DNA of 64,000 bases, from NCBI RefSeq assembly GCF_023913515.1, contig NZ_CP099391.1, positions 2,790,001 through 2,854,000 of the forward strand, read 5' to 3'. The position numbers and the translations under genes were made by a program. This document shows positions 807 to 60,112 of this stretch, one piece after another. The notes under the pieces were generated by a model. That model saw only the letters and a list, made by a program, of their open reading frames with translations, searched no databases and was not told the DNA's origin. Positions within the stretch are counted from its first letter, which is position 1. Every line of letters begins with the position of its first letter. The DNA comes from Natronococcus sp. CG52. GTDB taxonomy: Archaea > Halobacteriota > Halobacteria > Halobacteriales > Natrialbaceae.

Positions 807-887
807 ATGAAACTCGGGCCACCCCTTCCGACGGATCCGGCCGTATCGAGCCGACAGCCGACCGAACGCGCCGAACGCGAGCCATGA
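807..887 (+). CDS. 26-residue mini-ORF coupled to the downstream kinase
   Basis: A 27-codon frame begins at the ATG at 807 (MKLGPPLPTDPAVSS...) and its TGA overlaps the kinase ATG as ATGA at 884-887. A TATA-like GTTAACC at 773-779 lies about 30 bp before 807, so a leaderless transcript would begin on this mini-ORF. No family is recognised. It may be a translated leader that hands ribosomes to the kinase gene, or a chance frame in the 5' leader. Two more mini-ORFs of this kind occur in the window, before the MMPL exporter and before mnhB. Confidence 0.35.
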   Translation: MKLGPPLPTDPAVSSRQPTERAEREP

Positions 888-1993
888 CCGACAGCTACTA
901 CGAGCGACTCGTCGACGAGGACGCGCTGGCGGCGTACCTCGAGAACCACCTGGGCGCGGCCGAGGAGTACGATATCGACCGGCACCAGGAGGGCCACTCC
1001 AACGAGACGCTGTTCGTCACCTGGGGCGACCGCGACCTGGTGGTCAGACGGCCCCCGCCGGGCGAGACCGCCGACACCGCCCACGACGTCCTGCGAGAGT
1101 ATCGGGTGACGAACGCGCTCGTCGACACCGACGTCCCCGTCCCCGAACCGCTGCTCGCCTGCGAGGACCACGACGTCATCGGCAGCGATTTCTACGTGAT
1201 GGAGCGGCTCGAGGGGCACGTGCTCCGGCTCGAGGAGCCCGACGAGTTCGCCGTCCCCGACGCCCGCGAGCGGATCGGCGAGGAACTCGTCGACACGCTG
1301 GCGGCGATCCACGACGTCGACTACGAGGACGTCGGCCTCGGCGAGTTCGGCTACCCCGAGGGCTACACCGAGCGACAGGTCGAACGCTGGGGCCAGCAAC
1401 TGATGTGGGCGTTCGACCGCACCGCGGACGAGCGGGAGGTGCCGGACCTCTACGAGGTCGGCGCGTGGTTACAGGAGAACGCGCCGGACGAGCACCCACG
1501 CGCCCTCGTTCACGGCGACTACAAGCTGGATAACGTGATGTTTGGGCCAGCGGGACGCGACGCGTCCCGGAACGAGCGAGCGGACGACGTCCGCGAGCCG
1601 GCGACGCCGGAACTGGTCGGCGTCTTCGACTGGGAGATGGCCACGCTCGGCGATCCGCGGGCCGACCTGGGCTGGATGCTCTCCTACTGGCGCGACGCGA
1701 AGGATCCCGACCCCGCCGTGCCGGAACTCACGTCGACGTTCATGGAACGGGAGGGGTACTCGAGCCGCCGGGAACTGGTCGACCGCTGGGAGGACCGGAC
1801 CGGCCTCGCGTTCGAGCACGAGCGGTTCTACCGCGCGCTCGCGGTGTACAAGCTGGCCGCCCTCGGCGAGATGTTCTTCCGGCGCTACCTCGAGGGGAAC
1901 AGCGACGACCCGATGTATCCGAAGATGGAGGAACGCGTTCCCGCACTGGCCGCGCGGGCGATGCGAATCATCGAGGGCGAGGAGCCGCTCTGA
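884..1993 (+). CDS. APH/ACAD11-type phosphotransferase (kinase fold)
   Basis: The 369-residue protein has an aminoglycoside-phosphotransferase fold. HGDYKLDN near residues 210-217 is the catalytic loop with its Asp and Asn, and VFDWEMATLGDP near 248-259 carries the metal-binding Asp. Relatives are often annotated as phosphotransferase family protein and occur beside acyl-CoA dehydrogenases. In animals the equivalent domain is fused to the dehydrogenase in ACAD10/ACAD11, where it phosphorylates 4-hydroxyacyl-CoA. A similar role here is inferred from the divergent dehydrogenase and the following MaoC gene. About 20 low-complexity residues between the two motifs (nt 1552-1610) are encoded by a palindrome cluster not expected in the family. 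The gene is followed one base later by MaoC. Confidence 0.85.
   Translation: MTDSYYERLVDEDALAAYLENHLGAAEEYDIDRHQEGHSNETLFVTWGDRDLVVRRPPPGETADTAHDVLREYRVTNALVDTDVPVPEPLLACEDHDVIGSDFYVMERLEGHVLRLEEPDEFAVPDARERIGEELVDTLAAIHDVDYEDVGLGEFGYPEGYTERQVERWGQQLMWAFDRTADEREVPDLYEVGAWLQENAPDEHPRALVHGDYKLDNVMFGPAGRDASRNERADDVREPATPELVGVFDWEMATLGDPRADLGWMLSYWRDAKDPDPAVPELTSTFMEREGYSSRRELVDRWEDRTGLAFEHERFYRALAVYKLAALGEMFFRRYLEGNSDDPMYPKMEERVPALAARAMRIIEGEEPL
1552..1610. repeat. In-frame cluster of three perfect palindromes inside the kinase gene
   Basis: Three perfect inverted repeats lie within 59 bp: GGGACGCG/CGCGTCCC (1552-1559 and 1561-1568, 1-nt spacer), GCGGAC/GTCCGC (1580-1585 and 1589-1594) and CCGGCG/CGCCGG (1598-1603 and 1605-1610). 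They encode roughly AGRDASRNERADDVREPATP, a hydrophilic insert between the catalytic loop and the metal-binding motif. The reading frame is kept. It resembles the cluster inside the helicase gene at 8846-8970. Confidence 0.6.
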
Positions 1994-6834: not shown

Positions 6835-9828
6835 CTACTCCTCGGAAGCGAGTCCCCGCAACGCGCCCTCGCCGATCTCCTCGAGGACGTGCTCGTGAAA
6901 CGCCTGCAGAGCCGCGCTCTCGTCTTCCGCGAGGACGACGTCGCTCGCGGAGAGTGTCGCCAGCCCGAACGCCCGCGGCGTCGGCGAGTCGACCAGTCGG
7001 CGCTCGACCGTCAGTTCGCCGGAATCGATCGCGCCGACGATCGCCTCGATCTCGTCGACGTTGAGTTTGTCCTCGAGAATCTCGCGGTAGGTCTCCTCGA
7101 TCACCGCGAACTCCTCGAGATCCTCGGCGAAGCCGAGCAGCATCTCGCTCGAGACCTGCTGTTCGCTGGCGGACTTCTCGTAGCCCTTGTACCGTTTGAG
7201 GATCATCAGCGACCGGGTCGCGTTGATCCGGAAGTACCGCTGGAGCAGGTCGGTTCCCGAGATCGCCGATCGGAGATCCTCGCGTACCCGGTCGGCCTCG
7301 AGATCGTCGAGGATGCCCTCGAGGTCGACCTTCCGGTTCAGCGGCATCGAGAGCACGAAGCCGTTGTCCGCGACGGCGACCCGGACGTTGGCCGTCGCCT
7401 CCTGGGCGCAGCGGTAGGCCAGCAGCCGGGAGAACCCGTCGTTGACCTTTCGGCCGTAGTTCGAGTGGACGTAGTAGTGGCGCTCGTACTCCTCGCGGTC
7501 CCGCACGACCTCGACCGCGAGCCGTTCGTCGGTGCTCACGCTCTCGACACCCGCGTACCGGATCTGGTGTTCGAACAGGCGCGCGATCGCCCGGACGCTG
7601 TCGTCGTCGAGCGGAAACTCACGCAGCCAAGCGCGGACCCGCGACGGCCCGCCCGTCTCGTAGTGCTCGAGCAGGTCGGCCTGGAACGCGAGGATCTCGC
7701 AGCCGAGGTCGTAGGAGAGCGGCAGCCGTTCGGAGTACCACGAGGGAACGGTCGGACGAGCGCTGGTGTGGTCGACGTAGACTTTCGAGCCGCGCCGGTA
7801 GCGGTACTCGAAGTGGTTGCCGCCGAGGACGAAGACGTCGCCCTTCTCCAGGGTATCGAGGTAGTTCTCGTCGAGTTGGCCGACCCACTCGTCGCTCGCG
7901 CGGGTGTGGACGTCGCAGGTAAACGAGTCCGGGATCGTCCCGATGTTGGTCATGTAAATCACCCGGGCGAGTCGGCCTCGCTTGCCGATCAGCGGCTCGC
8001 CGACGGGGAACGCCTCGTGGTGGTGTTCGCCCTCGGGTGGGTCGTTCTCGTCGCACCAGATCTTCGCGTAGACGTTCCTGTCCTCGAGCCCGGCGTACTC
8101 GGCGGTGAGGTAGCGCACGAGCGACTCGTACTCCGCCTCCGAGTAGTTTCGGTACGGATACGCCCGCCGGAGGATCTCCTTCACTTCGGATTCCGGGCGA
8201 ATCTCGGCGATCGCCATCCCGTAGACCTGCTGGGCCGCGACGTCCTGGGCGTTCTCGGGGATCGACACAGAGTCGACGAACCCGTCCTCGGCCTTCTTCA
8301 GCATCACCGCGCACTCGAGCAGTTCGTCCCGGTCCAGGGCGATCACCCGCCCCGCGACGGTCTGACCGACGCGGTGGCCGGCGCGGCCGACCCGCTGAAG
8401 GAGGGCGGCGACCGACTTGGGCGACCCCACCTGCACCACGAGGTCGACGTGGGGCATGTCGATCCCCAGTTCGAGCGAGGTCGAGGAGGTGACGACCTCG
8501 AGATCACCGCCTTTCAGCCGTCCCTCGATATCCTGGCGGACCTCCTTCGAGAGGCTGCCGTGGTGACAGCCCGAGTTCTCGTCGTCGTAGGCGTCGAAGC
8601 GCTCGCGGAGGTTGTGCAGGACGCGCTCGGCCCCCGACCGGGTGTTCGTGAACACGAGCGTGTTCGTGTGTTCCTGGACGTGCTCGTGGAGCATGTCGTA
8701 GAACCGATCCTGAACGACCTCCCGGGAGGTGTTGATGAGGTCGTCGGTCGGACACTCGAGTTCGATGTCGAACTCGCGGGCGAAGCGGGCGTCGACGATG
8801 TCGTAGGGTCGCGGCTCACGGGTCGCTTCGTTCCCCGTCTGCTCGCGGGCCTTTGGCCCGTCCGCACGGTCCGAGGAACTCGACGAGTTCCTCGCTACTC
8901 GCTTTTCCGAGGGGTCCGCAGAAGTGCTCCGGACTTCTGATGGGCTGCGAGAATCGCTCTGCGATTCTCGAACGCGCGACGCCTCGCTTGATCCTCCGCC
9001 AGGCTCCTGTTGCCCCACCAGGAACTCCGCCACCTGCGAGAGCGGTTCGATCGTCGCCGAACAGCCGATCCGCGTGATCTCGCGGTCGACCATCGCCTCG
9101 AGTCGCTCGAGGCTTACCGAGAGGTGCGTTCCCCGTTTCCCGCCGGCCAGCGAGTGGATCTCGTCGACGATAACGTACTCCACGGTTCGGAGCTTCTCGC
9201 GGAATTTGGGGGAGTTCAGCAGGATGGCGAGCGTCTCGGGGGTCGTGTTCAGGATGTGTGGCGTCTCCTCGAGCATCTGCTGACGCTCGTAGGAGTCCGT
9301 GTCGCCGTGGCGGATGGCGTGGCGGATCTCGCCCATCTCCTCGCCGCCGGCTCGCGGGCGATCCCCGCTCGCACCTTCCGCTGCACTACGTGCCGCGCGC
9401 TCGCCGGCGATCGATTCGATCCCCTCGAGGGGCACCTCGAGGTTGCGGTGGATGTCGTTGGCGAGCGACTTCAGCGGGGAGACGTAGAGGCAGTAGACGG
9501 AGTTCTCGAGCGTTTCGTCGAGCTCCCGGCTCCGCCGGTAGAGTTCGTTGATGATCGCACAGAAGCTCGCCTGGGTCTTGCCGCTGCCCGTCGGCGCACA
9601 GATCAGCGTGTTCGTCCCCTCGTGAATCTTCGGAATCGCGCCCTCCTGGGGCGGCGTGAAGAAGCCGTCGTTCTCGGGAACGAACTCGCCGAACTCCTCG
9701 AGCCACCACTCCTGGACCGCCGGCTCGAGCAGATCGAAGACGTCGCGATCCTCGATGGTGGCGGCGTCCGGATCGAAGGAGAGATCGTCGTCGGAGACCG
9801 GCAACTCGAGACCGTCGTTCCCGTCCAT
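6835..9828 (-). CDS. lhr: Lhr-type ATP-dependent DNA helicase (SF2)
   Basis: The 997-residue SF2 helicase has Walker A APTGSGKT (78-85), TTPETLAILL, the DEIH box near 222, SATIEPL, then the second RecA-like domain with VFTNTRSGAE, SSTSLELGIDMP and the QRVGRAGHR motif VI. A winged-helix/beta-sheet Lhr core follows. Lhr proteins translocate 3'-5' on single-stranded DNA and unwind RNA-DNA hybrids during repair. ATG at 9828 was chosen; a GTG directly before it is possible. Two low-complexity linkers are odd. One is near residues 140-165 and the other at about 270-341, which is encoded by a palindrome array and lies between the two RecA domains. The gene is transcribed alone. Confidence 0.92.
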   Translation of the reverse strand: MDGNDGLELPVSDDDLSFDPDAATIEDRDVFDLLEPAVQEWWLEEFGEFVPENDGFFTPPQEGAIPKIHEGTNTLICAPTGSGKTQASFCAIINELYRRSRELDETLENSVYCLYVSPLKSLANDIHRNLEVPLEGIESIAGERAARSAAEGASGDRPRAGGEEMGEIRHAIRHGDTDSYERQQMLEETPHILNTTPETLAILLNSPKFREKLRTVEYVIVDEIHSLAGGKRGTHLSVSLERLEAMVDREITRIGCSATIEPLSQVAEFLVGQQEPGGGSSEASRVRESQSDSRSPSEVRSTSADPSEKRVARNSSSSSDRADGPKAREQTGNEATREPRPYDIVDARFAREFDIELECPTDDLINTSREVVQDRFYDMLHEHVQEHTNTLVFTNTRSGAERVLHNLRERFDAYDDENSGCHHGSLSKEVRQDIEGRLKGGDLEVVTSSTSLELGIDMPHVDLVVQVGSPKSVAALLQRVGRAGHRVGQTVAGRVIALDRDELLECAVMLKKAEDGFVDSVSIPENAQDVAAQQVYGMAIAEIRPESEVKEILRRAYPYRNYSEAEYESLVRYLTAEYAGLEDRNVYAKIWCDENDPPEGEHHHEAFPVGEPLIGKRGRLARVIYMTNIGTIPDSFTCDVHTRASDEWVGQLDENYLDTLEKGDVFVLGGNHFEYRYRRGSKVYVDHTSARPTVPSWYSERLPLSYDLGCEILAFQADLLEHYETGGPSRVRAWLREFPLDDDSVRAIARLFEHQIRYAGVESVSTDERLAVEVVRDREEYERHYYVHSNYGRKVNDGFSRLLAYRCAQEATANVRVAVADNGFVLSMPLNRKVDLEGILDDLEADRVREDLRSAISGTDLLQRYFRINATRSLMILKRYKGYEKSASEQQVSSEMLLGFAEDLEEFAVIEETYREILEDKLNVDEIEAIVGAIDSGELTVERRLVDSPTPRAFGLATLSASDVVLAEDESAALQAFHEHVLEEIGEGALRGLASEE
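8846..8970. repeat. In-frame array of four perfect palindromes inside the helicase gene
   Basis: Four perfect inverted repeats follow one another: CGGGCC/GGCCCG (8846-8851, 8855-8860), GAGGAACTCG/CGAGTTCCTC (8873-8882, 8884-8893), CAGAAGT/ACTTCTG (8919-8925, 8933-8939) and CGAGAATCGC/GCGATTCTCG (8948-8957, 8961-8970). They encode a Ser/Arg/Glu-rich insert with no family homology and leave the reading frame intact. The architecture matches the cluster at 1552-1610 although the arm sequences differ. Confidence 0.65.
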
Positions 9829-59611: not shown

Positions 59612-60112
59612 ATGCTTCGCTCGTTCGATGGGACCGAACCCCGGGTTGCTGACTCCGCGTACGTCGACGAGACCGCAGTCGTCATCGGCGACGTCGTCGT
59701 CGAAGCCGACGCCAGCGTCTGGCCGAACACCACGCTTCGAGGCGATCACGGCCAGATCGTCGTCGGCGAGGGAGCGAACGTACAGGACAACGCCGTCCTG
59801 CACGAGGACGCCGAATTACGACCGTCCGCGACGGTCGGCCACAGCGCGATCGTCCACGACGCGACCGTCAGTGAGGGCGCGCTGATCGGCATGAACGCCG
59901 TCGTTCTCGACGGCGCCCGTATCGGAGAGGGAGCCGTCGTCGCGGCCGGTAGCGTCGTCACGGAGGGCACCGACGTCCCTCCGTCGACGCTCGTCGCCGG
60001 ATCGCCAGCCGAGCCGAAAGCCGAGGTCGACGATCCGCGTCTCGAGGCGACCGCCGACCGGTACGTCGAACTCGCGACTCGCCACGAGAAGACCTCGGAA
60101 CGGCTGGACTGA
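59612..60112 (+). CDS. Gamma carbonic anhydrase-like protein (left-handed beta helix)
   Basis: The 166-residue protein starts MLRSFDGTEPRVADSAYVDE. The hexapeptide repeats make a left-handed beta helix. LRGDHGQIVVG, NVQDNAVLHED with the first His, and GHSAIVHDATV with the other two carry the three zinc ligands of Cam/YrbA-type proteins. It lacks the acidic loop of methanogen Cam, so activity as a carbonic anhydrase is plausible but unproved. The C-terminal helix trimerises the barrel. Confidence 0.88.
   Translation: MLRSFDGTEPRVADSAYVDETAVVIGDVVVEADASVWPNTTLRGDHGQIVVGEGANVQDNAVLHEDAELRPSATVGHSAIVHDATVSEGALIGMNAVVLDGARIGEGAVVAAGSVVTEGTDVPPSTLVAGSPAEPKAEVDDPRLEATADRYVELATRHEKTSERLD

Follow-up and report, generated by a model that had tools for sequence, protein, structure and literature searches.

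Mobile palindromes that are read in frame within proteins have come so far mainly from intracellular bacteria (Rickettsia and Wolbachia) and from one methanogen. The Rickettsia palindromic elements (RPE; Ogata 2000, 2002) are described as 105-146 bp long with terminal inverted repeats, and Methanocaldococcus jannaschii is cited (Suyama 2005) for archaeal palindromic repeats with coding potential. Among haloarchaea, the accessible text on the PATEs and SMR-A elements of Haloquadratum walsbyi (PMC3119063) presents short (to 52 bp), palindromic, transposase-free elements that cause no target duplication, and reports that palindromes of other elements serve as insertion sites for SMR-A. The GTAG and CGTC repeats (REP, RAYT; PMC3733652) are likewise short palindromes, single or dimeric, some of them intragenic and in frame; the string "halo" is absent from the text of that paper. 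The initial annotation of the DNA studied here, made from its letters alone, knew of no named haloarchaeal equivalent, and our search of open-licence papers also found no earlier haloarchaeal family of in-frame palindromes.

The window that we analysed is a stretch of 64,000 nt from the main chromosome of Natronococcus sp. CG52 (genome G000). Near its start lies a gene for an APH-like kinase (884..1993, + strand; an ORF of 369 aa) with orthologues across the haloarchaea, and a homologous paralogue of this kinase matches PF01636 in Pfam. Three adjacent perfect inverted repeats with stems of 8, 6 and 5 bp occupy positions 1551-1610, confirming the three repeats that the initial annotation had placed at 1552-1610; they lie in frame, after the catalytic loop HGDYKLDN and before the metal motif FDWE. 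The loop between these motifs has 30 residues in the window kinase and 14 in most of about 100 orthologues, and the insert is therefore 16 codons long (AGRDASRNERADDVRE; 1550..1597, + strand, residues A223-E238, ends ambiguous by 1-2 nt). The earlier statement that about 20 residues had been added in frame was thus right about the frame and too high about the size. Alignment at the DNA and protein levels showed insert-free sites in most orthologues, and the pattern that would have spoken against an insertion, a stretch conserved in distant orthologues with its palindromes gone, was absent.

On the + strand, the insert consists of hairpin P1 (1551..1569; CGGGACGC GAC GCGTCCCG, a perfect 8-bp stem with a GAC loop), a linker (1570..1579; GAACGAGCGA) whose GCGA part is nearly invariant among copies, hairpin P2 (1580..1594; GCGGAC GAC GTCCGC, a perfect 6-bp stem, again with a GAC loop) and the tail GAGC (1595..1598), of which GAG is nearly invariant; both stems covary among copies. 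The third palindrome, P3 (1598..1610, + strand; CCGGC GAC GCCGG, a perfect 5-bp stem with a GAC loop), lies outside the family unit described below. Its codons read PATP, and it is limited to the window species, N. amylolyticus and the near relative of the latter, A-GB1; P1 and P2 are parts of a repeat element and P3 is not. In the AlphaFold model, residues 225-237 form a low-confidence loop (pLDDT <50) flanked by two strands in an otherwise well-modelled fold, and the insert is predicted to be a disordered loop in the turn that joins the catalytic loop to the metal-binding motif. In the orthologue DNA alignment, the Natrinema zhouii kinase retains a perfect P1 next to a decayed P2, and the longer loops of more distant orthologues (Natronorubrum, Halegenticoccus) resemble inserts that have decayed or are unrelated. 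Long loops without clear palindromes also occur at this site in the orthologues L045, L071, L016, L055 and L072, as decayed or independent inserts.

Members of the same family as this insert are dispersed among haloarchaea. An exact-pattern search of the window's own genome returned a single copy, so that the family was nearly concealed and covariance models were needed to see it. Of 125 Natrialbaceae genomes, 108 had relatives of the insert at E<=0.01 under a first model (R1), built from 15 kinase copies. A broader model (R2), from a gapless alignment of 36 copies, has the consensus CGAGGCGC NNN GCGCCTCG GAANNNGCGA GCGGGC NNN GCCCGC GAGC. The family unit is about 48-54 nt long (the window copy, with its two hairpins, has 48 bases) and comprises the P1 hairpin, a conserved linker of about 10 nt, the P2 hairpin and the GAGC tail; the loops are mostly 3 nt, and P1 and P2 are unlike in sequence. 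The initial annotation had proposed a genome search for further coding sequences with adjacent perfect palindromes. With R2 the window's genome gave 42 matches at E<=1, 21 of them at E<=0.01 (best, 71.6 bits), all on the main chromosome; the reversed control model gave 5 and 0, respectively (best, 24.1 bits). Matches at E<=1e-5 occurred in 34 of 256 genomes of the phylum, all from the window's order, a restriction whose weight depends on how many of the 256 lie outside that order. A second window copy, matched by R2, lies in frame (RAARSAAEGASGDRPRA; 9350..9397, - strand) in a gene for a DEAD/Lhr-like helicase (PF00270). Within 8700-9450 (- strand), this gene carries inserts at two places: one is the simple copy, and the other, around 8838-8897, is a composite in which palindromes are nested, with further hairpins upstream. 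Two intergenic copies of 60 nt, L242 (G000:C1:2740) and L243 (G000:C1:3939015), are identical in themselves and in their near flanks and lie near opposite ends of the 3.97 Mb contig; they are perhaps a duplicated segment.

The reading frame of 166 copies was classified with a codon model trained on orthologues. Ninety copies were coding in frame +1, 17 in frame +2 and none in frame +0; two were antisense, 27 were called non-coding (including two that are in frame in the helicase gene and were later counted as such), and the rest were ambiguous. Where both flanks were clearly coding, 107 of 109 copies were in the sense orientation and in frame. The two antisense copies (L286 and L306) are in the same TruD-looking gene in two genomes of one genus and so probably record one event. 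All 17 frame +2 copies are in kinases, with the peptide GRDASxxERAxDxRE, and the frame +1 peptide is (S/G)EAxRASExASGxxPRA. In each group, the frame in use is stop-free, has a net charge near zero and the most acidic residues, and gives a hydrophilic peptide, from which we infer a selection filter acting on the peptide.

Clear and likely in-frame copies together number 132 and fall in 66 clusters of mostly housekeeping proteins. Pfam gave names to most of them, among these Trp_syntA, enolase, enoyl-CoA hydratase (MenB), RrnaAD (KsgA), GatB, amidase, several aminoacyl-tRNA synthetases, PurH, PurL, PurK, CPSase, topoisomerase, SufBD, MoeA, CobN, P450, serpin and others, and Bud32 is also among the in-frame hosts. 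For enolase, TrpA and MenB, the inserted stretch is absent from the best relatives of solved structure. The host genes seem to have taken up small mobile DNA while remaining functional, as is known from Rickettsia. One tRNA synthetase gene (L218) holds two in-frame copies, and at L187 the adjoining TrpB and TrpA genes have one copy each.

We consider it likely that the kinase insert represents a mobile, non-autonomous DNA element that is dispersed in haloarchaea, made of two hairpins, moved in trans and kept as a tolerated loop. The evidence is the recurrence of the element within and between genes, its covarying stems, the filled and empty orthologous sites, nesting at a specific joint and the bias in frame. 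The copies would be inserted by a mechanism provided in trans that works on the folded DNA strand; those landing in genes would survive only when they preserve the frame by their length and, in their orientation, encode a stop-free, hydrophilic, charge-neutral peptide, which a surface loop of a salt-adapted protein may tolerate. The peptide would then be a passenger loop while the palindrome slowly decays. Counting against a mobile element, neither a mobilising enzyme nor a target-site duplication was found, no insertion was caught between near-identical strains, and the window kinase groups with insert-free relatives. A viral vehicle found no support, the viral collection having given one generic pattern match and zero for the kinase subtype.

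The alternative that fares best, which we regard as possible but unlikely, is that the sequences spread mainly by homologous recombination (gene conversion or short-tract horizontal transfer), the kinase subtype being an old insertion passed among kinase genes. This subtype was traced with a 31-position pattern covering P1 and the linker, allowing <=3 mismatches, in the 125 Natrialbaceae genomes; the matches examined, together with those in Natronococcus, are all in kinases, between the catalytic loop and the metal motif. The hosts are APH-like kinases, of which one genome has three paralogues with the insert, and the Bud32 domain of Kae1-Bud32, so that a single structural position is used in two kinase families, which counts against random insertion as the explanation. 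The APH and Bud32 inserts are nearly identical DNA, as recombination would predict, but the two genes have little DNA in common beyond the insert. The Bud32 gene of the window's genome holds a related element at the homologous position (L249; G000:C1:3327691-3327737). Within Natronococcus, the Bud32 insert is long in G000, shorter and without P1 in five species, and missing from three.

The history of the window copy bears on the same question. In an APH tree computed without the insert columns, the window kinase stands beside G008 and the insert-free N. pandeyae (94% identical), and five other insert-bearing Natronococcus form a supported group. About 100 nt around the insert are closest to N. 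amylolyticus, though the gene as a whole is nearest to N. pandeyae; this favours recombination, but the flank similarity is partly common to the insert-free G008, and a constraint uniting the six Natronococcus carriers was not rejected (p-AU 0.595). The window copy may thus reflect either loss in two relatives or local recombination. The initial annotation had offered a mobile miniature element or a recombination product. The former is supported for the family by the protein clusters, the empty sites and the site-specific nested insertions, and a fresh insertion of the window copy itself is not required, given that local recombination, or loss in the two nearest relatives, may account for it. 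Recombination leaves unexplained 64 further clusters without homologous flanks, and the nested copies too.

These nested copies also bear on how a mobile element would move. The GatB gene of L272 has one element; in that of L314, from the same genus, this element is split precisely between its GCGAG and CGG by a 54-nt sequence (TAG, 48 nt, AGA). The joint GCGA(G/A)^CGG inside older copies characterises a second subtype (type B) and recurs in L292, L297, L298, L313, L315 and L331 with differing outer sequences, the right end being slightly varied in L297 and L315. It is complete in 8 of 17 copies with a type B linker, as against 1 of 144 type A copies. The helicase gene of the window has a further example by R2 match and the joint rule, a nested type B element of 60 nt (TAG...AGA; 8838..8897, - strand) at GCGAG^CGG of an older element. 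The placement of type B at one exact joint inside older copies indicates that the element is probably mobile. No target-site duplication was seen at the nested joint, and no target consensus was found for primary insertions.

Y1 transposases are the expected mobilising candidates. On one reading the elements would be true REPs or PATEs, REP-like in kind and mobilised by Y1 transposases (RAYT or IS200/IS605) of the same genome, and the hairpins near both ends, the fixed nested joint and the want of target duplication fit such repeats, as does the haloarchaeal precedent of the PATEs, which in the accessible text include 52-bp forms. We find this doubtful: PF01797 (Y1 transposase) is absent from five carriers (G000, G108, G014, G263 and G041), which argues against present dependence and not against past activity; primary insertions have no target consensus; and of 161 distinct copies only 14 have GTAG immediately before P1. 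An equally speculative proposal is a two-tier, self-targeting hairpin family with non-Y1 mobility, in which the kinase subtype would be directed at the DNA level to one turn, that between catalytic loop and metal motif, in two kinase families.

Sequences kept for a function, whether as a regulatory mRNA or DNA hairpin or as a useful acidic loop, seem quite improbable. Conservation of this kind could account for the use of one kinase position in two families and for the covarying stems. Pairing in the stems reaches 96.5% among 85 distinct aligned copies, with 122 double Watson-Crick changes, a level that is inflated by the finding of copies through a structure model but that no shuffle reached and that a one-base shift of partners abolished; the stems of the 36-copy set covary likewise. 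Against function, only about 10 G-U pairs occur in the same alignment, though an RNA function would tolerate them, and this rarity suggests that the hairpin structure may be maintained or produced at the DNA level. A test for compensatory changes in same-site orthologue pairs gave a mixed result, with single breaks (decay) beside double changes. Copies that lack P1 or have decayed persist, presence is patchy even inside a genus, and the host proteins are unrelated.

Chance palindromes in GC-rich, codon-biased DNA are extremely improbable as the explanation, and for the high-scoring copies already refuted: codon shuffling of the gene produced an 8-bp stem alone in 15% of cases and E-values near 1 are inflated in the window's genome (26 covariance-model matches at E<=1 within the window), but the reversed control had no match at E<=0.01, the 31-position pattern gave 18 matches against 0 for its reversed control, and the covariation is strong. 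The 8-bp stem with an adjacent 6-bp stem arose in 0.6% of the shuffled versions. The folding energy of the insert region is unremarkable (z -1.5) and uninformative as a test. Near-identical 48-mers recur in other genes and genomes, and this recurrence, with the absence of comparable matches for the reversed control, is the strong evidence. Adjacent 8-bp and 6-bp stems also occur at 59794-59837 of the window, in a hexapeptide-repeat (gamma carbonic anhydrase-like)-looking gene where an insert is not evident; they are probably due to chance.

The mobile, tolerated element that we favour suggests that small mobile DNA may give rise to new protein loops on a broader scale than had been assumed, in free-living haloarchaea and in hosts that include enolase, TrpA, aminoacyl-tRNA synthetases and the KEOPS kinase Bud32. 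The strong choice of frame and its tie to peptide charge open the selection step to experiment, and many of the halophilic hosts can be cultured.

Among known systems, MITEs are characterised by terminal inverted repeats and target-site duplication; here, the two hairpins differ and the nested joint is without duplication. The CGTC repeats (PMC3733652) resemble the haloarchaeal element in having no dedicated transposase, and a loose test placed CGTC or GACG close to one end of 41 of the 161 copies; the loops are mostly 3 nt, and those of CGTC REPs 4-5 bp. Unlike GTAG REPs, the element has no conserved GTAG tag, and the five carriers are without the resident Y1 transposase of REP/RAYT systems. 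With PATEs it has in common palindromes near its termini, here two hairpins, a nested joint without target duplication and a length too short for a transposase; compared by description, PATEs differ in being treated as IS605-type relatives, and in-frame use in proteins is not described in the accessible text (PMC3119063). The M. jannaschii elements, as cited, are also archaeal and palindromic with coding potential, and differ in lineage and base composition. The likeness to in-frame Rickettsia elements drawn in the initial annotation is supported: like RPE and their Wolbachia equivalents, the haloarchaeal copies are dispersed palindromes, in frame in many unrelated and mostly conserved proteins (the 66 clusters) and also intergenic. 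They differ in their unit of 48-54 nt, two separate hairpins, GC-richness, free-living archaeal hosts and the fixed joint of the second subtype. The element works like RPE but is probably a separate family, from which RPE differ in unit length and base composition.
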